Assembly (NCBI GenBank): GCA_963971535.1
Contig: OZ020593.1
Coordinates: 35,425,600 to 35,489,599, forward strand
From: Notolepis coatsorum
Taxonomy: Eukaryota > Chordata > Actinopteri > Aulopiformes > Paralepididae
Direction: 5' to 3'
Length of the DNA stretch: 64,000 nucleotides
The notes under the pieces: generated by a model
What the model was told of the DNA's origin: nothing
What the model saw: the letters and a program-made list of their open reading frames with translations, nothing else
Databases searched by the model: none
Made by a program: the position numbers and the translations under genes
In this document: one piece after another, positions 3,950 through 63,977 of the stretch
Layout of the letters: each line of letters opens with the position of its first letter
Position numbering within the stretch: the first letter of the stretch is position 1

Positions 3950-5080
3950 TAATCTGCTAAATGATTTGCCACATCATCTGGTTTTGTATGTGCCCATCAA
4001 CATTAGATGGAAGAGCTGAGACCAATGTTAAAAGCAGTTCTTGTATAACCTCCCCTGTATTGTTTGAAGAAATTCAATACAATCTCTGAATGCATTCTCG
4101 TAAAATAAAGCCTTCTTGTTTCGATTTAATTTAAGTGCATAATTACGGAGCTTTTTTATAGTTGTGCCAATCTGAATCCAATTTTCAATTTGATGCAACA
4201 GCTTTTGCCTTGTTTCTTTCCGTAAAAGCCTTGCTTAGCTCATCATCAACCCAGGGGGCTGGACGTGCCTTCATAGTCATTTCCCTCTCTGGAAATGCTC
4301 CATCACCCTTAAGAAAACATTCCAATTATCCTCCAGACACAACAAATCCCAAGGAACCGCTGCTAAATCCTTCTGGAATTCACATAAGTTAAGAAGTTAA
4401 CAACAATCTAGTCTCTTGGGAACTAGTTTTAGTTATCGTCACAATAATGTCATCTGTCTAACCCACATGAAATATCCTTCAGAACACTGCATTGGTAAAC
4501 TGCTAACAATCTAATCAATACATGTCTCAATGTTCTCATTGTTTCTGGAGGAAAATCTCATCACAGGTCTTAGTTACAGGTCTCAGCAAACCTTGACAAT
4601 TTGATTCTATTTATATTATTTGTATCACTCCAATTAATATTGACATCACCCTATGATATTATCTTCTGTTGCTTTATCTATGCTGCTTCACACATCTTCC
4701 AGATAGGACATGTTTGATTTGGGAGGTCTGTAAACACATCTAATAAGCATTGGTAATTCGTATGGCAACTGTATTCATATCAATATTAATTCTACTTCAC
4801 CGACACAAAGGTTCTCTCTTTTGAAGGCAAATATGATTTTGAATATATAAAGCCACTACTCTGTCCATACCTGTTCTTATCCCTTCTTATCATATTGAAT
4901 CCCTCAAGGTGAATCATTAATCATCCAAATGCGTTTCAGTTATGGCTAAAATATGCACATTATTAATAATTAAATAATTAAATAAATAATTAAATAATTA
5001 AATCAGAAGGATCATGCATTCGTGCTAAATGCAATCCTTGACAAATCAATTTCCTACTTGGCTTTGACATATTACAGAAA
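3950..5080 (-). mobile_element. Degenerate LINE: endonuclease and pre-RT region
   Basis: On the minus strand, read from about 5060 downward, a broken frame shows GLHLARMHD, then VHILAITETHLDD, which matches the apurinic-type endonuclease motif of non-LTR elements (ITET). Then follow a YGQSSGF-like segment, FTDLPNQT, and DVNINW- and ETC-like pieces. Further along, near 4240-4290, RPAPWVDDELSKAF and, near 4130-4190, KLRNYALKLNRNKKALFYEN match the linker before the RT. Many stops and frameshifts are present. The RT itself is absent. It may belong to the family of the 3' ends at 42.5 and 61.6 kb, but there is no overlap to test this. Confidence 0.65.
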
Positions 5081-6202: not shown

Positions 6203-7626
6203 GCACTCAACACGTCATGTCAGCTCCTCCCATCTGTACTCTCCCTTGGTTTCTCAATTCATGTCAGCTCCTCCCACTCATACTCTCCCTCGGCTCCTCC
6301 CACCCGTACTCTCCCTCGGCTCCTCCCACCCGTACTCTCCCATGGCTCCTCCCACCTGTACTCTCACTTGGCTCCTCCCACCCCGTACTCTCCCTTGGCT
6401 CTCAACACGTCATGTCAGCTCCTCCCATCTGTACTCTCCCTTGGTTTCTCAATTCATGTCAGCTCCTCCCACTCATACTCTGCATTGGCTCCTCCCACTC
6501 ATACTCTCCCTCGGCTCCTCCCACCCGTACTCTCCCTCGGCTCCTCCCACCCGTACTCTCCCTTGGCTCCTCCCACCTGTACTCTCACTTGGCTCCTCCC
6601 ACCCCGTACTCTCCCTTGGCTCTCAACACGTCATGTCAGCTCCTCCCATCTGTACTCTCCCTTGGTTTCTCAATTCATCATGTCAGCTCCTCCCACTCAT
6701 ACTCTCCCTCGGCTCCTCCCACTCATACTCTGCCTCGGCTCCTCCCACCATACTTTCCCTTGGCTCCTCCCACTCGTACTCTCCCTTTGCTCCTCCCACC
6801 CATACTCTCCCTTGGCTCCTTCCACCTGTACTCTCCCTCGGCTCCTCCCACTCGTACTCTCCCTCGGGTCCTCCCACTCGTAATCTCCCTCGGCTCCTCC
6901 AACCCCTACTCTGCCTCGGCTCCTCCCACTCATACTCGCCCTTGGCTCCTACCACCCGTACTCTCCCTCGGCTCCTCCCACCCGTACTCTGCCTCGGCTC
7001 CTCCCACTCATACTCGCCCCTCGGCTCCTACCACCCGTACTCTCCCTCGGCTCCTCCCACCCGTACTCTCCCTCGGCTCCTCCCACTCGTACTCTCCCTT
7101 GGGTCCTCCCACTCGTACTTTCCCTCGGCTCCTCCCACTTATACTCTCCCTCGGCTCCTCCCACCCGTACTCTCCCTCGGCTCCTCCCACTCGTACTTTC
7201 CCTCGGCTCCTCCCACCCGTACTCTCCCTCGGCTCCTCCCACTCGTACTCTCCCTTGGCTCCTCCCACCCGTACTTTCCCTCGGCTCCTCCCACTCGTAA
7301 TCTCCCTCAGCTCCTCCCACCCGTACTTTCTCTCGGCTCCTACCACTTGTACTCTCCCTCGGCTCCTCCCACTCGTACTTTCCCTCGGCTCCTCCCACCC
7401 ATACTTTCCCTCTGCTCCTCCCACCCGTACTCTCCCTCGGCTCCTACCACTCGTACTCTCCCTCGGCTCCTCCCACTCGGAATCTCCCTCAGCTCCTCCC
7501 ACCCGTACTTTCCCTCGGCTCCTCCCACCCGTACTTTCCCTCGGCTCCTCCCACCCGTACTTTCCCTCGGCTCCTCCCACTCGTAATCTCCATCAGCTCC
7601 TCCCACTTGTACTCTCCCTCGGCTGT
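6203..7626. repeat. 26-bp minisatellite with higher-order structure, about 54 copies
   Basis: The unit is close to CTCCTCCCACCCGTACTCTC plus CCTCGG (26 bp). Because 26 is not divisible by three, every third unit returns to frame, so all frames stay open for hundreds of codons. These reading frames are not genes. In the left 480 bp a variant block with CAACACGTCATGTCAG and GGTTTCTCAATTCATGTCAG recurs at 6208, 6403 and 6624. The spacings of 195 and 221 bp differ by exactly one unit. The right part is a homogenised simple array with T/C variants. Confidence 0.95.
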
Positions 7627-11135: not shown

Positions 11136-12120
11136 TGTACTAAGTACAATAGTGTGTGTAATAGTGTGCTAGTGTAATAGTGTGTAATAGTGTGCTAGTG
11201 TAATAGTGTGTAATAGTGTAATAGTGTGTAATAGTGTGTAATAGTGTAATAGTGTGTAATAGTGTAATAGTGTAATAGTGTGTAATAGTGTAATAGTGTG
11301 TAATAGGGTAATAGTGTAATAGTATAATAGTGTAATAGTGTAATAGTGTAATAGTGTGTAATAGTGTAATAGTGTGTAATAGTGTAATAGTGTGTAATAG
11401 TGTGTAATAGTGTAATAGTGTGTGCTAGTGTAATAGTGTGTAATAGTGTAATAGTGTAATAGTGTGTAATAGTGTAATAGTGTGTAATAGTGTAATAGTG
11501 TAATAGTGTGTAATAGTGTAATAGTGTAATAGTGTGTAATAGTGTAATAGTGTGTAATAGTATAATAGTGTAATAGTGTGTAGTGTAATAGTGTGTAATA
11601 GTGTAATAGTGTGTAATAGTGTAATAGTGTAATAGTCTAATAGTGTGTAATAGTGTAATAGTGTAATAGTGTAATAGTGTGTAATAGTGTAATAGTGTGT
11701 AATAGTGTAATATTGTGTAATAGTGTGTAATAGTGTAATATTATAATAGTGTAATAGTGTGTAATAGTGTAATAGTGTAATAGTGTGTAATAGAGTGTAA
11801 TCGAGTGTAATAGTGTGTAATAGAGTGTAATAGTGTAATAGTGTGTAATAGAGTGTAATAGTGTGTAATAGTGTAATAGTGTAATAGTGTGTAATAGTGT
11901 AATAGTGTAATAGTGTGTAATAGTGTAATAGTGTGTAATAGTGTAATAGTGTAATAGTGTGTAATAGTGTAATAGTATAATAGTGTAATAGTGTGTAATA
12001 GTGTAATAGTGTAATAGTGTGTAATAGTGTAATAGTGTAATAGTGTGTAATAGTGTAATAGTGTAATAGTGTGTAATAGTGTAATAGTGTGTAATAGTGT
12101 GTAATAGTGTAATAGTGTGC
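11136..12120. repeat. (TAATAGTG)/(TAATAGTGTG) array, about 1 kb
   Basis: The array mixes 8-bp TAATAGTG and 10-bp TAATAGTGTG units in irregular order, with rare TAGAGTG, TATAATAG and GTGCTAG variants. It starts within one 136-bp unit (after GTGCCATTGTAC) and ends at the start of the fifth 136-bp copy, so it expanded inside the longer tandem repeat. Minus-strand frames reading LLHYYT repeats are not genes. Confidence 0.95.
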
Positions 12121-18895: not shown

Positions 18896-18978
18896 TAATC
18901 TGGCCCTTCACAACAGTAACAGCTGCCCTTTTCACACAAAGAAGCCGGCCAAAAGGCGGCATTTTGAAATGGGGCTGT

Positions 18979-19606
18979 GCTGGTTCCAGACCCGTTCACA
19001 CTGCTAGTTCTAGACCCGTTCACACTGCTGGTTCCAGACCCGTTCACACTGCTAGTTCTAGACCCGTTCACACTGCTGGTTCTAGACCCGTTCACACTGC
19101 TGGTTCTAGACCCGTTCACACTGCTGGTTCCAGACCCGTTCACACTGCTGGTTCTAGACCCGTTCACACTGCTGGTTCCAGACCCGTTCACACTGCTGGT
19201 TCTAGACCCGTTCACACTGCTGGTTCCAGACCTGTTCACACTGCTAGTTCTAGACCCGTTCACACTGCTGGTTCCAGACCCGTTCACACTGCTGGTTCTA
19301 GACCCGTTCACACTGCTGGTTCTAGACCCATTCACACTGCTGGTTCTAGACCTGTTCACACTGCTGGTTCTAGACCCGTTTACACTGCTGGTTCCAGACC
19401 CGTTCACACTGCTGGTTCTAGACCCGTTCACACTGCTAGTGCTAGACTCTGTTCACACTGCTGGTTCTAGACCCGTTCACACTGCTAGTTCCAGACCCGT
19501 TCACACTGCTGGTTCCAGACCCGTTCACACTGCTGGTTCCAGACCCGTTCACACTGCTGGTTCTAGATCCGTTCACACTGCTGGTTCCAGACCCGTTCAT
19601 GCTGCC
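18979..19606. repeat. 24-bp minisatellite, about 26 copies
   Basis: The unit is GGTTCTAGACCCGTTCACAC plus TGCT. Alternate units carry C or T in TTC(C/T)AGACC and A or G in CTRGTT. One unit near 19,441 (GTGCTAGACTCTGTTC) has one extra base and shifts phase. The 24-bp length keeps all frames open, giving SRPVHTAG or VNGSRTSS repeats that are not evidence of a gene. Confidence 0.95.
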
Positions 19607-34058: not shown

Positions 34059-34191
34059 TTAAAGGGGACATGCATTGCTATTCCTTGCACTATTTGGGCA
34101 ACTTTACACAATTCCTGTGAGTCTATTGAACACATCTGTAAGGTTTATTTAAAAGAAAATCAAATAGAGAAAGAGCGAGAGAGAACGAACA

Positions 34192-34249
<58 letters not shown>

Positions 34250-34250
34250 T
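34192..34250. repeat. (GA)n microsatellite inside copy A
   Basis: A GA tract of about 55 bp. Confidence 0.95.
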
Positions 34251-34299
34251 TGTGTGTAATGCTCTGACGAGGGAGAGAGAGAGAGGAGAGATGCGTCCC

Positions 34300-34682
34300 C
34301 GACACACACACAGTCAAGTTTGTGTGTGTGTGTGTCCGACGAGGGCGAGAGATGGCGCACACACATTTACACACACTTCTGCAGTCCCTCCCGCCGTCCC
34401 TCTCTCTCTCTCTCCCTCTCTCTCCTCGCTCGTTCTCTGCCTGTCAAACCCCATTTGAGGAAGTGTCGGGTTACACTATGCCTACGTCCCCGACACACAC
34501 GCATTCAAGTTTGTGTGTGTGTGTGTGTCCGACGAGGGAGAGAGATGGCGCACACACATTTACACACACTTCTGCAGTCCCTCCCGCCGTCCCTCTCTCT
34601 CTCTATCTCTCTCTCTCTCCCTCTTGCTCATTCTCTGTCTGTCAAACCCTGTTTGAGGAAGTGTCGGGTTACACTGCACTAC
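34300..34682. repeat. 191-bp tandem duplication with hairpin-forming CA/TG arms
   Basis: CGACACACAC starts at 34,300 and 34,491. Each copy has a CACACA arm, a CAAGTT-type loop and a TGTGTG arm, then CCGACGAGGG, GAGAGATGGCGCACACACAT, TTCTGCAGTCCCTCCCGCCG, a CT tract and GAGGAAGTGTCGGGTTACAC. Serine/leucine-rich frames are artefacts. Confidence 0.9.
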
Positions 34683-34912
34683 AACCATAGAGGTGGCATT
34701 ACTCATTACTCATTAATCAGTGCTATATTAACGTCAGCAAAACCGTCAAATCAGAACAGCTTAGTTGAGTGAGGGAGGATCTCGTGAACTCGAGACTAGA
34801 CTGATGAGTCAATATGGTAATTAGAGACACAGACCCATTGATACTAACCCGTATTACTATAAAACCATGCTAAACACAGAAAAAAGCCATTTATAATGCA
34901 TGTCCCCTTTAA

Positions 34913-38046: not shown

Positions 38047-38472
38047 TTAAAGGGGAACTATTTTACTATTTCTTTCACTATTTGGGCACTTTTACACAAT
38101 TCCTGTGAGTCTATGGAACACCTCTGTAATATATATATTTTTTTTATTCATTGTTTTGTATTTCTAATCAAGTCCTCAAAAACAGCATTTTTCTACCTCA
38201 AGATCTCGAGCCGTTTTGAGCCTGGGCAGCAGAACTGTGTGCAGCTCATCTTGCACCTCTTCATTAACATGCAGCGGTGTCTCTCTGACATCACAAATCG
38301 CGCACATTTTCAGATGACTCAGTTCAGTGAGGGTGAATATTGTGAGAGGAGAATTGGAAGAATGCGCCAATATGAGAATTTTGAGACATAGATCATATTA
38401 ATATAAGTTCACATAGCTAGGAAACAATGCTAAACACTCAAAAAGGCCATTTATAAGATAGTTCCCCTTTAA
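38047..38472 (+). mobile_element. Kolobok-like miniature element, copy B (426 bp)
   Basis: Left end TTAAAGGGGAACTATTTTAC and right end GATAGTTCCCCTTTAA are inverted repeats bounded by TTAA. It is almost identical to copy C but in the opposite orientation. Its right 140 bp match the left end of the THAP-encoding element at 51,678. Short frames over it are not genes. Confidence 0.9.
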
Positions 38473-43050: not shown

Positions 43051-43301
43051 ATGTGTTTCATTACATGTATATACTGTATACATACATACCAATTATTTGC
43101 TTGTTCTATTCCCCATCCATCTATCATCCATAGCAACACTATATTATCACCGACATCCTGTTGGGGGATCCCCTTTGAACAGCCCATCTGAGGTTTCTCT
43201 CCTCCAGGCCGCCTGTGGTTTTTTTTTCTTCCTATTGCTAGGTTTTAGTGAGTCGTTCCCCATCTTCATTGGGGAAAGTCTGGGGATGTTGCATTATGTG
43301 A
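43051..43301. other. Spacer with a dispersed-repeat-like segment
   Basis: CATCTGAGGTTTCTCTCCTC and GTGAGTCGTTCCCCATCTTC ATTGGGG look like a piece of a common dispersed repeat; the class is unknown. Confidence 0.4.
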
Positions 43302-44175
43302 CTGACTCTGGAGCAGCTCATAGAGGAGCAGTCCTCTGGACCAGTTAAAATAGTTAAACTGACCCTGGAGCAGCTCATAGAGGAGCAGTCCTCTGGACCA
43401 GTTAAAATAGTTAAACTGACCCTGGAGCAGCTCATAGAGGAGCAGTCTTCTGGACCAGTTAAAATAGTTAAACTGACCCTGGAGCAGCTCATAGAGGAGC
43501 AGTCCTCTGGACCAGTTAAAATAGTTAAACTGACCCTGGAGCAGCTCATAGAGGAGCAGTCTTCTGGACCAGTTAAAATAGTTAAACTGGCCCTGGAGCA
43601 GCTCACAGAGGAGCAGTCCTCTGGACCAGTTAAAATAGTTAAACTGACCCTGGAGCAGCTCATAGAGGAGCAGTCCTCTGGACCAGTTAAAATAGTTAAA
43701 CTGACCCTGGACCAGCTCATAGAGGGGCAGTTCTCTGGACCAGTTAAAATAGTTAAACTGACCCTGGAGCAGCTCATAGAGGAGCAGTCCTCTGGACCAG
43801 TTAAAATAGTTAAACTGACCCTGGAGCAGCTCACAGAGGAGCAGTCCTCTGGACCAGTTAAAATAGTTAAACTGACCCTGAAACAGCTCACCGAGGAGCA
43901 GTCCTCTGGACCAGTTAAAATAGTTAAACTGACCCTGAAACAGCTCACAGAGGAGCAGTCCTCTGGACCAGTTAAAATAGTTAAACTGACCCTGGAGCAG
44001 CTCACAGAGGAGCAGTACTCTGGACCAGTTAAAATAGTTAAACTGACCCTGGAGCAGCTCATATAGAGGAGCAGTCCTCTGGACCAGTTAAAATAGTTAA
44101 ACTGACCCTGGAGCAGCTCATAGAGGAGCAGTCCTCTGGACCAGTTAAAATAGTTCAATTGACCCTGGAGCAGTT
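43302..44175. repeat. 57-bp minisatellite, about 15 copies
   Basis: CTGACCCTGGAGCAGCTCAT recurs every 57 bp (43,359; 43,416; and on). Because 57 is 19 codons the frames persist: the minus strand reads SRVSLTILTGPEDCSSMSC repeats in a 321-codon frame, and the plus strand reads LTLEQLIEEQSSGPVKIVK without a start codon. The plus frame breaks at a 2-bp insertion near 44,061. I regard it as non-coding. Confidence 0.9.
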
Positions 44176-44189
44176 CTCTAGGCGACGTT

Positions 44190-45101
44190 AGTTTCCTTTT
44201 CATTTGAGTTGATTTAGCTGAGAATAGTCAGAGATGGGCCTCTTTGGAATAGTTTGCTCTCAAACAGTGAGGAATAGGAGGGTACAACAAAAATACAACA
44301 CAAGGTTAGAAATAGTACTGCAAACAGTACTCCACATATAACAATAAGTACAATATAAAATGTACAGTCAAATAGAAACATGGTTGTACGGCTCAACCTG
44401 AATGAAAAGCCAGTGAGAAGAGGTGAGCTTTTAAAGGGGAACTATCTTATAAATGGCCTTTTTCAGTGTTTAGCATTGTTTCCTAGCTATGTGAACTTAT
44501 ATTAATATGATCTATGTCTCAAAATTCTCATATTGGCGCATTCTTCCAATTCTCCTCTCACAATATTCACCCTCACTGAACTGAGTCATTTGAAAATGTG
44601 ATGATTTGTGATGTCAGAAAGACACCGCTGCATGTTAATGTTGAGATACAAGATGAGCTGCACACAGTTCTGCTGCCCAGGCTCAAAACGGCTCGAGATC
44701 TTGAGGTAGAAAAATGCTGTTTTTGAGGACTTGATTAGAAATACAAAACAATGAATAAAAAATATATATATATTACAGAGGTGTTCCATAGACTCACAGG
44801 AATTGTGTAAAAGTGCCCAAATAGTGAAAGAAATAGTAAAATAGTTCCCCTTTAACAAAGACGTAAAAATCGGTTGGGGCAGATCTAATATGTAAAGGTA
44901 AACTGTTCCACAGCTTGTGGGCAGTCACCCCAAAGGCTTTGTCACCTTTAGATTTGAGCCCAGATTTTGGAACGTCCAGAAGCAACTGATTTGACGACCT
45001 CAGTGCTCTAGCTGGTGTGTGAACATGGAGGAGTTCAACTAGGTAATGAGGGGCCCGACCGTTTATGATAAAAACAATTAATTAAAAAAAACATCAGAAT
45101 C
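44190..45101 (-). mobile_element. LINE C-terminus, split by miniature elements C and D
   Basis: From the right on the minus strand: INGRAPHYLVELLHVHTPAR, LKSKGDKAFGVTAHKLWNSL, PLHIRSAPTDFYVF. The sequence is then interrupted by copy C (44,431-44,855). Joining the flanks with one TTAA continues in frame as LLKAHLFSLAFHS, the expected LINE C-terminus, followed by a stop and a 3' UTR to about 44,200. The upstream side stops at 45,101, where element D begins, in a KILMF-like segment. Confidence 0.85.
44431..44855 (-). mobile_element. Kolobok-like miniature element, copy C (425 bp)
   Basis: It has TTAAAGGGGAACTATC and GATAGT/ATAGTTCCCCTTTAA ends and TTAA duplications, and is inverted relative to copy B with only scattered differences. 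Its left 145 bp align with the left end of the THAP-encoding element (TTATAAATGGCC, AGTGTTTAGCATTGTTT, CATTCTTCCAATTC, CCCTCACTGA.CTGAGTCAT). It is inserted inside a LINE coding region. Confidence 0.9.
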
Positions 45102-45366
45102 TTAAAGGGGAACTATTTTGCTATTTCTTTCACTATTTGGGAAATTATACACAATTCCTGTGAGTCTATAGAACACATCTGTAAGTTTTATTTTCAATAA
45201 AATTCATTGTTATGTATTTTAAATCGATTACTTTGGTGGACCACTTTCTGCCCTGCCAGATTCCAAGCTGTTTTTGGCTGGGCTCCGCCCATACTCTCAA
45301 TGCGCTGGCAGATACAGAGAGAGTATCTCTCCCCCCAGGCTGCTATAAGCCATTCTGCCCCTCACT
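45102..45366 (+). mobile_element. Partial Kolobok-like element, fragment D
   Basis: TTAAAGGGGAACTATTTTGC TATTTCTTTCACTATTTGGG and the following ACACAATTCCTGTGAGTCTA match the start of copies A and B. After about 110 bp it becomes different sequence (GGGCTCCGCCCATACTCTC) and then a (GT)n tract. The right end was not found. It may be a larger relative of the miniature elements. Confidence 0.7.
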
Positions 45367-51232: not shown

Positions 51233-51677
51233 AGGGGTGTAACAGTACACAGAAGCCACGGTTCGGTACGTACCTCTGTATTGATGTCACGGTTCGGTAC
51301 GATTTCGGTACAACAGGAAAAAAATATTTATAATTATTATTATAATTATTATTATTAAATATAATGATATTCTATAGGCTTGCCGTGGTAGTAGTCAGTG
51401 ATACTGGTGTCATTCTGTGTTCAGGCATCCAATGAGTAAATTAATTGCCTACTGCCCCCTTAACAACTTATGCAACAACTTAGTTTCAGTTTCACTTGTA
51501 GAGAGGATTTAACTTCATATGAAGCCGAGACTGAAGAAGACTAGAGAACAGATTACATGTTACACAATAATGGATGGACACAGCAGAGGATTTATCAATA
51601 TTTTGGATTTAAACACAGTAGTAGCAACTGGAGAGGAGCTCAGATGATCAGTCCAAACGTATGTAGTGCTTTTTTTT
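51233..51677. mobile_element. Left end of a hAT-like element
   Basis: TTAGGGGTGTAACAGTACAC and repeated CACGGTTCGGTACG motifs (51,259; 51,291) resemble a common hAT-type terminus. The element is interrupted at 51,678 by the THAP-encoding transposon. No right end was found. Confidence 0.5.
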
Positions 51678-51980
51678 TTAAAGGGGAACTATCTTATAAA
51701 TGGCCCTTTCCAGTGTTTAGCATTGTTTTCTAGCAATGTGGGTTTGTATCAATGGGGTCTATGTCTCTAATTCTCATTTTGGCACATTCTTCCAATTCAC
51801 ATCTCACAAGATTCTCCCTCACTGACCTGAGTCATCTGAAACTTAGCGTACCTCGGACGTCCAAGAATTCTCATCTGCATAATAATAACGCCCGCCCCCT
51901 ATGTTTGTTGCCACCCACTGCAAATGCGTGGAATTGAAGTTTAACAGTGAGTTAGCATTGGGTTAGCATTTAAAAACATT

Positions 51981-52263
51981 ATGAGCAAAACGGGCAAAAT
52001 ATGTTGTGCTGTTCCTGACTGCCAAGCAGCGAATATGACCTTGCATTCATTTCCTGATGATGTTGTGATCCGTTATCAATGGGCCACGTTTGTTTTCGGC
52101 GACCTGCCGAATGCTCTCCCAACTGCTCGGAGTCGAGTGTGTACCGCACATTTTTGCAAGGAGGACATTGAGAATAAAGGACTTTATTATGCTGGGATGA
52201 GTTCCAGGAGAAAAGAAGGGTGCTTTACCGAGTATTCGGGACACGAAAGAAAATATCGAATCA
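51981..52263 (+). CDS. THAP-type zinc-binding domain, first coding exon of a transposase-like gene
   Basis: THAP domains bind DNA through a C2CH zinc site and form the N-terminus of P-element and some Kolobok transposases. From ATG at 51,981 the 94 complete codons show KICCAVPDC (C9-x4-C14), LHSFP at residues 21-25, W34, then SRVCTAHF with C54-x2-H57. After that comes a Y..G pattern (GLYYAGM, residues 67-73) seen in this domain class. The usual C-terminal AVPT motif is not obvious. The frame stays open nine codons beyond the donor TCA|GTAAGT at 52,264, which is a perfect donor consensus. It has no stops or frameshifts. The leader is shared with miniature elements, which ties it to the transposon rather than to a host THAP gene. 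Confidence 0.75.
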
Positions 52264-52632
52264 GTAAGTACAAATGTCGTAATTAGTCAGCTAACTAATT
52301 GTTGCTAGCTTAGCTAACATTATCTTAGCTCTGTGCTTCGTTGTATATATGTAGACCTAGTTGTGTGTATTGCGAATTAATGATTATGTTCCTTGTCTGT
52401 GTTTGGGGGGGGTTATCTTAGCTCTGTTTATTGCGCCAAGAAAATCTAACGTTAGTACAAGCACCGTGTGTGTGTGTGTGTTAGATGGAGACGGAGTGAG
52501 AGAGCAATCTTATTCTTCCTGTCATTTGTGTTCTCTATACCCAAAATTGTATGGCATGGGTACCTGCTTCGGTGTCATCCCTTTGTGGATTGTATTGTAT
52601 TATATATGTAATTGTTTTTATCCTTAGGGCAG

Positions 52633-52751
52633 CAGGCCTTTGCAGCGCCCAGCTTCCCGGGACATCTGTTGCCAGACTGACCTCCCAAATAGGATATCTG
52701 TTGGCACTCAGCTCTCGAAGAAAACTTTACAGACACATGTCAAAAGTCGAG
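52633..52751 (+). CDS. Probable second exon of the THAP-encoding transposon
   Basis: A pyrimidine-rich tract and CAGCAG acceptor (52,630-52,635) precede an open stretch reading GLCSAQLPGTSVARLTSQIG, LLALSSRRKLYRHMSKVE, ending at GAG|GTTTGT (52,752). The phase left by exon 1 (one base) joins in frame whichever of the two tandem CAG acceptors is used. I do not recognise a domain in it. The evidence is splice sites and frame only. Confidence 0.45.
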
Positions 52752-52905
52752 GTTTGTAAAATATTTGATCAATTAGCAATTTATGTATTCCAGTTAGTGC
52801 TGTGATGTGTTGCTTAGAATGTCAATTCTGTAGCTATTGCACATGTAATGCACACATGTAGTTTTGGCAGCTATAATAGCCTTTAGATATCAATCTACTG
52901 TAATA

Positions 52906-53320
52906 TCATCCACAGACAAACTGCAAATGGTCCAAAATGCTGCAGCCAGGCTACTCACAAAAAAAATCATGTCACATCACTCCCATTCTGGCATCCCTGC
53001 GCTGGCTCCCGGTACACTATAGAATTCACTTCAAAGTCCTCACTTTTACTTTCAGAGCACTCCACGGTCAGGCCCCTATCTATATCACTGAACTCATCCA
53101 TCCCTACACCAACACCCGCTCACTCAGATCTGCCGATCAGCACCTCCCATGGTCCCCAGGTCCAGGCTCAAAACAAGGGGTGATCGAGCCTTCAAGGTGA
53201 CGGCACAAGGCTCTGGAATGCTCTCCCCCTGGACCTGCGAACTGCCCCCTCAGAAAACAATAAAAAAAAAACAGCTAAAAACACATATGTTTATATAGGC
53301 ACCCTTTTTGTCCTCACTGT
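52906..53320 (+). mobile_element. LINE C-terminal fragment
   Basis: In two frames: KLQMVQNAAARLL, then HITPILASLRWLPVHYRIHF, KVLTFTFRALHGQAPIYITE, YTNTRSLRSADQ and RSRLKTRGDRAF. This is the C-terminal segment of a CR1/L2-type LINE, with a frameshift near 53,165. It truncates the THAP element on its right. Confidence 0.8.
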
Positions 53321-63592: not shown

Positions 63593-63943
63593 GACAGCAG
63601 GATAGACAGCAGGGTAGACAGCAGGGTATAGACAGCAGGGTAGACAGCAGGATAGACAGCAGGGTAGACAGCAGGGTAGACAGCAGGGTAGACAGCAGGG
63701 TAGACAGCAGGGTAGACAGCAGGGTAGACAGCAGGGTAGACAGCAGGATAAACAGCAGGGTAGACAGCAGGGTAGACAGCAGGGTAGACAGCAGGGTAGA
63801 CAGCAGGGTAGACAGCAGGGTAGACAGCAGGATAAACAGCAGGGTAGACAGCAGGGTAGACAGCAGGGTAGACAGCAGGATAAACAGCAGGGTAGACAGC
63901 AGGATAGACAGCAGGGTAGACAGCAGGGTAGACAGCAGGGTGG
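63593..63943. repeat. 12-bp minisatellite, about 29 copies
   Basis: The unit is GACAGCAGGGTA, with GACAGCAGGATA variants and one 14-bp unit near 63,625. Twelve bases keep every frame open (VDSR, VYPA, LSTL repeats). Not coding. Confidence 0.95.
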
Positions 63944-63977
63944 ACACCCCGGAAAACACCCACGATCCTCACCTGTG

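Follow-up and report, generated by a model that had tools for sequence, protein, structure and literature searches.

Here, we propose that positions 51,678-53,131 of the 64,000-nucleotide stretch of Notolepis coatsorum DNA analysed here (the window) are very probably the dead 5' remnant of a Kolobok transposon of the Kol0 group, with the neighbouring miniature elements A-C as non-autonomous derivatives and with sister subfamilies as the source of a THAP exon now found in a C2H2 zinc-finger family. Taken alone, the feature in the window is unremarkable, a dead copy of a transposon type already known. Elsewhere in the genome, in dozens of copies of a zinc-finger family of the kind thought to police transposons (excerpts of PMC10547256), a transposase DNA-binding domain seems to have taken the place of the finger array. 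If these copies are expressed, they would amount to a test set up by nature of whether a transposon's DNA-reading domain can serve the host as a weapon against that transposon.

A truncated element in the window

The features discussed are collected in Table 1.

Table 1. Features of the window, with the exon structure (as in the full copies) read from the letters alone
Feature	Positions	Strand	Remarks
Kolobok (Kol0-type) 5' stump, very probable	51678..53131	+	AGGGGAACTATC terminus after TTAA target; order: terminus, 5' leader, exon 1, intron 1, exon 2, start of intron 2; breaks off within L2-like LINE fragment
TTAA target-site half, then AGGGG terminus	51678..51681	+	sequence
Exon 1, transposase THAP zinc-finger domain	51981..52263	+	5-base deletion after 52,208, upstream of AVPTIF-like box
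Intron 1, GTAAGT ... TTAG	52264..52627	+	read from sequence alone
Probable transposase exon 2 (GSRPLQRPAS...VGTQLSKKTLQTHVKSR)	52628..52751	+	TTAG acceptor and GTTTGT donor, by eye
L2-like LINE fragment	52921..53131	+	same place in copies L021, L026 and L024
Miniature A (854 bp)	34059..34912	-	low-complexity repeat filling
Miniature B (426 bp)	38047..38472	-	element 5' end right, 3' end left
Miniature C (425 bp)	44431..44855	+	98-99% to B, inverse orientation
Fragment D	45102..45323	-	3' end of the element alone, at 76% in 224 aligned columns

The frame that opens with the ATG at 51,981 starts MSKTGKICCAVPDCQ... and has the C2CH pattern of a THAP domain (C9-x4-C14, LHSFP, W34, CTAHF), as the original prediction held. 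It matches the Pfam THAP profile PF05485 (E=6.2e-8, 33.8 bits, cut-off 23.9), with the match ending at profile position 62 of 87, and a phmmer search of the frame against PDB returned no match. The GTAAGT donor that had been read after it is present at 52,264-52,269 and is retained by most aligned copies. The 94-codon frame had also been called intact, and this part did not stand: the frame is open, yet it is shifted by a 5-base deletion that none of the other 20 aligned genomic copies has. The shift throws the final ~18 codons ahead of the donor out of frame and removes the AVPTIF-like box, which 19 of these 20 copies have as KKGAVPCIRDP or something close to it; downstream of the deletion the frame is open by chance. 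Against six other copies the window THAP gives dN/dS values of 0.75-1.4, on 4-9.5 synonymous changes, which are too few for a claim.

The feature had been given an end at 52,751. This is indeed the probable end of exon 2, while homology to the element extends further, to 52,915 and then through the L2-like fragment (which we take to be L2 from its reading frame) to about 53,131. Past this point, copies L021 and L026 resume the element and the window stays in L2-like sequence. A Pfam search of the probable exon 2 gave no match; among the matches listed, the query segment that covers it (906-1074) is 94-96% identical to nine copies and 78-80% identical to most others. Sequence comparison found no later parts of the element, no 3' end and no catalytic exons within the 64-kb window, the sole similarity to later element sequence being two matches of 68-70% identity, with fewer than 200 columns each, at other places. 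The copy would thus have lost everything 3' of the L2-like fragment, likely through recombination between L2 sequences. With its 3' part gone and its THAP exon frameshifted, the window copy is inert: it has neither both ends nor a complete transposase, and although it belongs to the parental family, it is unable to move anything. Rfam and ARAGORN scans of the window gave no matches.

Full-size copies and proposed assignment to Kolobok

A DNA search of the fish's own genome (3.42 Gb) gave 70 match pieces, with the best 40 scored of 3,684 candidates, and 20 of the matched places were fetched for closer reading. Two full-size copies run from TTAA to TTAA at C6:113,053,918-113,064,230 (10,313 bp) and C7:201,779,810-201,790,126 (10,317 bp), both lengths being taken from the coordinates. 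The full-size copies start with TTAA-AGGGGAACTATCTTATAAATG and finish with the reverse complement of TTAA-AGGGGAACTATTTTACTATTTC; their 3' terminus, AAATAGTAAAATAGTTCCCCTTTAA, is the reverse complement of the left end of miniature B. They carry AGGGGAACTAT at each end, and thus the 5'-RR/YY-3' ends that mark Kolobok. Four further copies (L012, L014, L018 and L027) keep both ends and are shorter, at 4.4-5.9 kb. In their longest matches to L017, copies L015, L016 and L018 reach 98.7-99.2% identity, which points to recent activity of the family.

The original prediction had taken the feature for the 5' portion of the autonomous transposon that mobilises the local miniatures, and expected a full copy with the left terminus of miniature B and a catalytic region to exist in the genome. 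Such copies were found (L029 and L030, which end in exactly that terminus), with the downstream exons read as DDE by eye. The family was therefore correctly identified, whereas the window copy, as a truncated and frameshifted 5' stump with neither catalytic exons nor a 3' end, is not itself the parent.

Could the frame instead be a single-copy or few-copy host THAP gene that happens to lie behind an unrelated transposon end? Host loci with a related THAP exon do exist, as described below, but this reading is scarcely credible: the end and the frame recur jointly among the 70 pieces, other copies that start as at 51,678 continuing into the THAP frame; full copies possess both ends; the best matches of the frame are a multi-copy transposon family; no zinc-finger-gene N-terminus precedes the window frame; and in a tree it groups with transposon copies.

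Downstream of the THAP exon, frames carry, in order, GGDMRADSPG, HCAKYGSYSVMEL, CIVTDRHPQI, FYDVWH and SPLESYHS. Of 19 copies scanned, 8 combine MRADSPG, TDRHPQI and LESYHS (one of them with N in place of the first D), and each of these 8 also has YDVWH; the other 11 are without one or more of the three. By eye, we assign these strings to a putative DDE core, split over exons, with DVWH in the 8 copies as its C/DxxH motif, an assignment that has no profile match behind it. The string FNHMHDVHTHKDPLFKKCLHADH, found in all five copies whose frames were read, was taken by eye for a putative H2CH zinc cluster. A Pfam scan of seven frames of L017 gave sub-threshold matches only, none of them to a transposase; with no significant match in the catalytic exons, the residues of the DDE core and of the zinc cluster were picked out by eye.

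Near the 3' end of the element, two KolX frames lie on the opposite strand. One (RYVAYRSFVSWCWGFLGRHVRVVIPSCVV...) matches Pfam P2RX7_C (E=5e-12) and P2X7 structures in PDB (E=3.5e-7). The other (CRCVCGNCARMPT...) has no match in Pfam or by phmmer against PDB, and its placement in KolX is a tentative one, by pattern only. The KolX exon RYVAYRSFVSWCW...PSCVV was found, on the opposite strand, in 10 of 16 sequences scanned. Kolobok elements have TTAA duplications and RR ends, and those of the Kol0 group encode both a transposase and KolX, which resembles the P2X7 C-terminus (excerpts of PMC9587614); the usual Kolobok motifs are THAP, H2CH and DDE (excerpts of PMC6004289). The TTAA target sites, the THAP domain, the split DDE exons (by eye) and the KolX-type exon, with its likeness to the P2X7 C-terminus, together point, very probably, to a Kol0-type Kolobok.

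An N-terminal THAP domain is also what a transposon of another superfamily, of P-element type, would have. P elements make 8-bp target duplications. Miniature C shows a 4-bp TTAA duplication instead, and with the AGGGG ends and the KolX exon this makes a P-type element highly improbable.

As a Kol0-type Kolobok, the full element of ~10.3 kb would encode a multi-exon transposase, with THAP in exon 1 and the DDE core, DxxH motif and Cys/His cluster (all by eye) in later exons, together with an opposite-strand KolX exon akin to the P2X7 receptor's cytoplasmic tail. By analogy with the family, the transposase presumably uses THAP to bind the element ends, then cuts the element out and integrates it at a TTAA, which would be duplicated on insertion, as seen for miniature C.

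Two side observations concern other copies. Within copy L020, a reverse-transcriptase-like frame was noted by eye on the minus strand (element positions 4,240-4,929). Copies L027 (4,392 bp, both ends present) and L028 have a 5' end and THAP exon of the window type and mostly unrelated sequence beyond exon 1.

A step in identity within exon 1

Against all 18 type-I copies (L009-L026), the window element is 77-83% identical over 51,678-52,127 and 90-95% identical over 52,128-52,917 (p <= 1.2e-8 for each), and no such step appears against L027, L028 or L031. The simplest reading is that two Kolobok lineages may have recombined within exon 1, such that the first ~450 bp of the window subfamily, from the terminus to mid exon 1, came from another lineage than the remainder. 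We lean slightly towards this recombinant origin, which supplements the Kolobok assignment and does not replace it. Against it, when type-I copies are set against L021, those further away show a smaller step at this position (93-95%, then 97-98%) and closer ones show none, so that a faster-evolving 5' module together with homogenised downstream sequence is possible as well; L027 and L028, moreover, differ in sequence beyond exon 1, and their second part comprises 162 sites only. Both the terminus and half of the THAP exon belong to the 5' module at issue.

Miniature elements and the TTAA target

In the window there are 8 occurrences of the string TTAAAGGGG, where 0.76 would be expected; none of 100 shuffles reached 8, and the occurrences mark miniatures A, B and C, the one-ended fragment D and the element end at 51,678. 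As originally predicted, this element end resembles those of the miniatures: 51,676-51,841 is 86-89% identical to C, and the right end of A, which corresponds to the element 5' end, is 82% identical to the window copy over 95 bp (70% to L017). The left end of A corresponds to the element 3' end (86% over 100 bp). Miniatures B and C lie in opposite orientation with differing flanks, and both match the two ends of the element at 82-83% (the 5' end as L017 1-185, the 3' end as the last 181 bp of L029, 1250-1430), which identifies them as internally deleted relatives of it. Miniatures A, B and C would thus have retained both ends, lost the middle and moved in trans.

The idea that the window copy is the parent of these miniatures fared less well. 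The 5' ends of B and C are 84-87% identical to the window copy and to the 18 type-I copies alike, and 80-81% to L027/L028, so the window copy is not the closest sampled relative of B and C. For A the 5'-end values are 82% to the window copy, 80% to L027/L028 and 69-75% to type-I copies. Judged by these identities, A is the only miniature with a 5' end that prefers the window type.

Miniature C sits in a repeat, and its flanks, when joined at one TTAA, match paralogous empty sites (132 pieces, with the best 40 scored of 218 candidates and four read). Three of the four sites read have a single TTAA and one has TCAA, from which it follows that insertion duplicates TTAA. The full-size copies are likewise flanked by TTAA at both ends, and TTAA is thus the target site, as in Kolobok.

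TTAA is also the target of piggyBac, and one could suppose that A-D derive from piggyBac and resemble the THAP element at their ends by chance. This is very hard to reconcile with the 82-83% match to the THAP element that B and C show over ~180 bp at each end, or with the ends themselves, which are AG here; 5'-RR ends distinguish Kolobok from piggyBac (excerpts of PMC9587614). With Kolobok as the source, TTAA miniatures are here tied to a full-length element that matches them at both ends, a tie that for the T2-MITEs of Xenopus was presumed from end features (excerpts of PMC6004289).

As a minor observation, miniature A contains a low-complexity internal tandem duplication of ~190 bp (91-97%) at 34,294-34,675.

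A predicted family of THAP / zinc-finger fusions elsewhere in the genome

A protein search with the THAP frame (best 150 scored of 1,269) returned transposon exons of ~110 residues and also many matches, in clusters, within frames of 325-589 residues. Six of the latter stretches were fetched and represent five loci, since L033 and L036 are the identical locus. Their N-terminus is of the zinc-finger-gene type (for example EPPQLSVCEEEVPPEQQERSPSLSQEEPEPLQMKEEQEELW...) and leads through a linker (...DDWKESGEPQSGLKMLILNKKQKT), in the same exon and in frame, into W-SKTGKTCAVPGCQAANTSLHSFPND...GAVPSLRDPKESIESVST, or a near variant of it, and then a stop. In a search with the junction (150 loci scored of 2,044 candidates, so that the count is a lower bound), at least 60 loci cover at least 128 of the 129 residues, and all 60 are without a stop in the matched stretch. 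Below these 60, the next score is 188 bits, down from 230; a partial match at C7:99,946,800 contains two stops. Both fusions tested match Pfam THAP over positions 1-86/87. Host and transposase sequence thus stand in one open frame at 60 or more related loci, in what looks like a large, predicted host-transposase fusion family. Nine of the loci lie on C6 and 51 elsewhere (they were partly read, as L033-L038 and L041-L052), and the figure of 60 may exceed the true gene number, because the assembly may contain two haplotypes or duplicated contigs. The fusions retain the transposon splice donor just upstream of the stop, and the real fusion transcript may for this reason differ.

What does the linker join in the rest of the family? 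In a search with the linker (best 150 scored of 2,718 candidates), many matches stop at query residue 124-127, and all five fetched loci that end there have the same linker upstream and continue with LSLSHTG...CSVC into C2H2 fingers (9, 8, 11 and 9 fingers, and one frame that ends after a single finger). Sister Kolobok subfamilies probably donated a THAP exon that was placed where the finger-type paralogues begin their fingers. The predicted host protein would combine an acidic N-terminus of the zinc-finger family with DNA reading by the transposase THAP, probably at Kolobok-like sites. The end point of the linker match was considered as a divider between fusions and finger genes and was dropped, since some long frames end at 130 (for example C9:18,483,901, which is absent from the junction list); the fusions were counted by the junction query alone.

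Along C6:8,376,435-9,186,704, nine fusions alternate perfectly with eight finger-type loci, mostly in opposite orientation, among the ranked matches listed; lower-ranked genes may intervene, and two of the eight finger-type loci were read as such.

Several comparisons bear on where the THAP exon came from. The fusion DNA is 77-79% identical to the window element over 51,972-52,334, from just before the ATG into intron 1, in five stretches, with further similarity at 52,414-52,505 (L033) and up to 52,477 (L037). Closer relatives are the transposon copies L053, L054 and L057, which have 64-75 bp of the element 5' end upstream (83-86%), no linker, and THAP sequences 91-96% identical to those of L036/L037. 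The exact string TTAAAGGG is absent from the donor-type copies L053-L057 within the 0.8-1.0 kb read. In a tree of 44 sequences, L053, L054 and L057 share a weakly resolved clade (81/85) with 15 of the 17 fusions, and the remaining two, L041 and L042, cluster with L055 (100/99). We infer from the donor-type copies, with their element 5' end, missing linker and high identity, and from this tree grouping that the fusion THAP exon came from Kolobok; on this evidence the predicted direction is that the THAP of the host family derives from transposons and not the reverse.

One may still ask whether the fusions are transposons that acquired a zinc-finger-gene exon, and not host genes with a captured THAP exon. 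There are multiple copies of either kind of locus, and the fusion loci still have the intron and splice donor of the transposon, as such a pick-up would have it. Yet the linker passes directly into THAP, without any transposon 5' end to separate the two, the longest matches of the N-terminal DNA to finger-type paralogues are 94-99% identical, fusions and finger-type loci alternate on C6 as tandem-duplicated genes would, and donor-type THAPs reside in transposons without the linker. We therefore consider a transposon origin of the fusions unlikely and retain capture of the THAP exon by the host family.

The joint itself reads ACATGGAGC in five of six fusions compared and GCATGGAGC in the sixth; L052 lost the joint through a small deletion, and L044 has a one-base difference. 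Between L041/L042 and L036 the linker has no synonymous change while the THAP part has a pS of 0.20, which calls for either gene conversion or repeated capture: the exon may have been captured once and exchanged later, or captured twice at a single site. Across 136 non-independent pairs from 17 of the 60 loci, the THAP part has a pN/pS of 0.61, a sign of only mild constraint; the corresponding value of 2.58 for the linker comes from very few synonymous changes, with gene conversion likely. A 10-base stretch shared by the window element and a finger gene (AAAAACATTA) was considered as microhomology at the joint and dropped, because the closer donors L054 and L057 are without it. Downstream of one fusion locus, a reverse-transcriptase-like frame was noted by eye (L034:1108-2358:+).

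In light of these fusions, what might their role be? One option is that the finger family turned THAP on Kolobok: with at least 60 loci, more than one THAP lineage at one joint and amplification in alternating arrays, the fusions could bind the ends of Kolobok and its miniatures, silence them or block the transposase, and be renewed by exchange with new subfamilies. We offer this role tentatively and hold it to be possible but rather doubtful.

Comparison with known systems

The element resembles Kol0 Kolobok transposons (Kolobok-1_XT; XKol of Xenopus) in its TTAA duplication, AG/RR ends, THAP domain and KolX and, as far as read by eye, in a putative DDE core, DxxH motif and Cys/His cluster (excerpts of PMC6004289 and PMC9587614). 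In extracts of PMC6004289, full copies in X. tropicalis measure 6.8-13.9 kb, similar to the ~10.3 kb here, and the left end of one of them, XKol A5 (Tr2; length 10,282), is given as AGGGGAACTATCATGA, which has its first 12 bases in common with the element described here. The same extracts give the Xenopus coding sequences as single longest frames of 1.8-2.6 kb, whereas the transposase here is split over many exons. Miniatures A-C share TTAA, AGGGG ends and a Kolobok partner with the T2-MITEs of Xenopus, which have TTAA and AGGRR and are presumably moved by Kolobok (excerpts of PMC6004289). Unlike in that case, ~180 bp at either end of the miniatures can be matched to a full-length element here, so the link rests on sequence and not only on an end motif.

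The fusions join a transposase DNA-binding domain to host regulatory-protein sequence, as does KRABINER (Cosby et al. 2021, via excerpts of PMC12062965), from which they differ in having the joint inside one exon, THAP in place of the C2H2 finger array, and dozens of copies. The finger family recalls the FiNZ-ZNF genes of cyprinids, with large clustered families of fish C2H2 genes, acidic N-termini and transposon control (excerpts of PMC10547256), a likeness by description, since the N-terminus here was not identified as FiNZ; THAP replaces the fingers in a subset of the present family, and the word THAP is absent from the text of the FiNZ-ZNF paper (PMC10547256). In Caenorhabditis, too, a multicopy host family, the F-box A2 genes, captured a transposase DNA-binding domain (excerpts of PMC12062965); there, domain (Tc1/mariner HTH) and host family differ from ours, and the fusion is to an F-box, with no swap between DNA-binding domains. 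Expansions of THAP transcription factors in invertebrates likewise consist of multi-copy THAP genes that are thought to be transposon-derived (excerpts of PMC10027918); the words 'Kolobok' and 'fusion' are absent from that text and no joint with a zinc-finger family was seen in its passages. Among the top-ranked results of a search of open-licence literature, judged by title and opening of the abstract, there was no THAP / zinc-finger-family fusion in fish, which is weak evidence of absence, and the predicted family would represent a new variant of host-transposase fusion.

Other features of the window

Next to the Kolobok end, a stretch at 51,234-51,330 (GGGGTGTAACAGTACA...CGGTTCGGTACG) presumably resembles a terminus of hAT type. 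Just left of miniature C lies a tandem array of 15 copies of a 57-bp unit at 96% (43,301-44,173), and the unit (ACTGACCCTGGAGCAGCTCATAGAGG...) could, as a guess, be a coding repeat. Long tandem arrays with units of 12 to 52 bp occupy 6,267-7,624, 11,154-12,118, 18,978-19,599 and 63,593-63,946.
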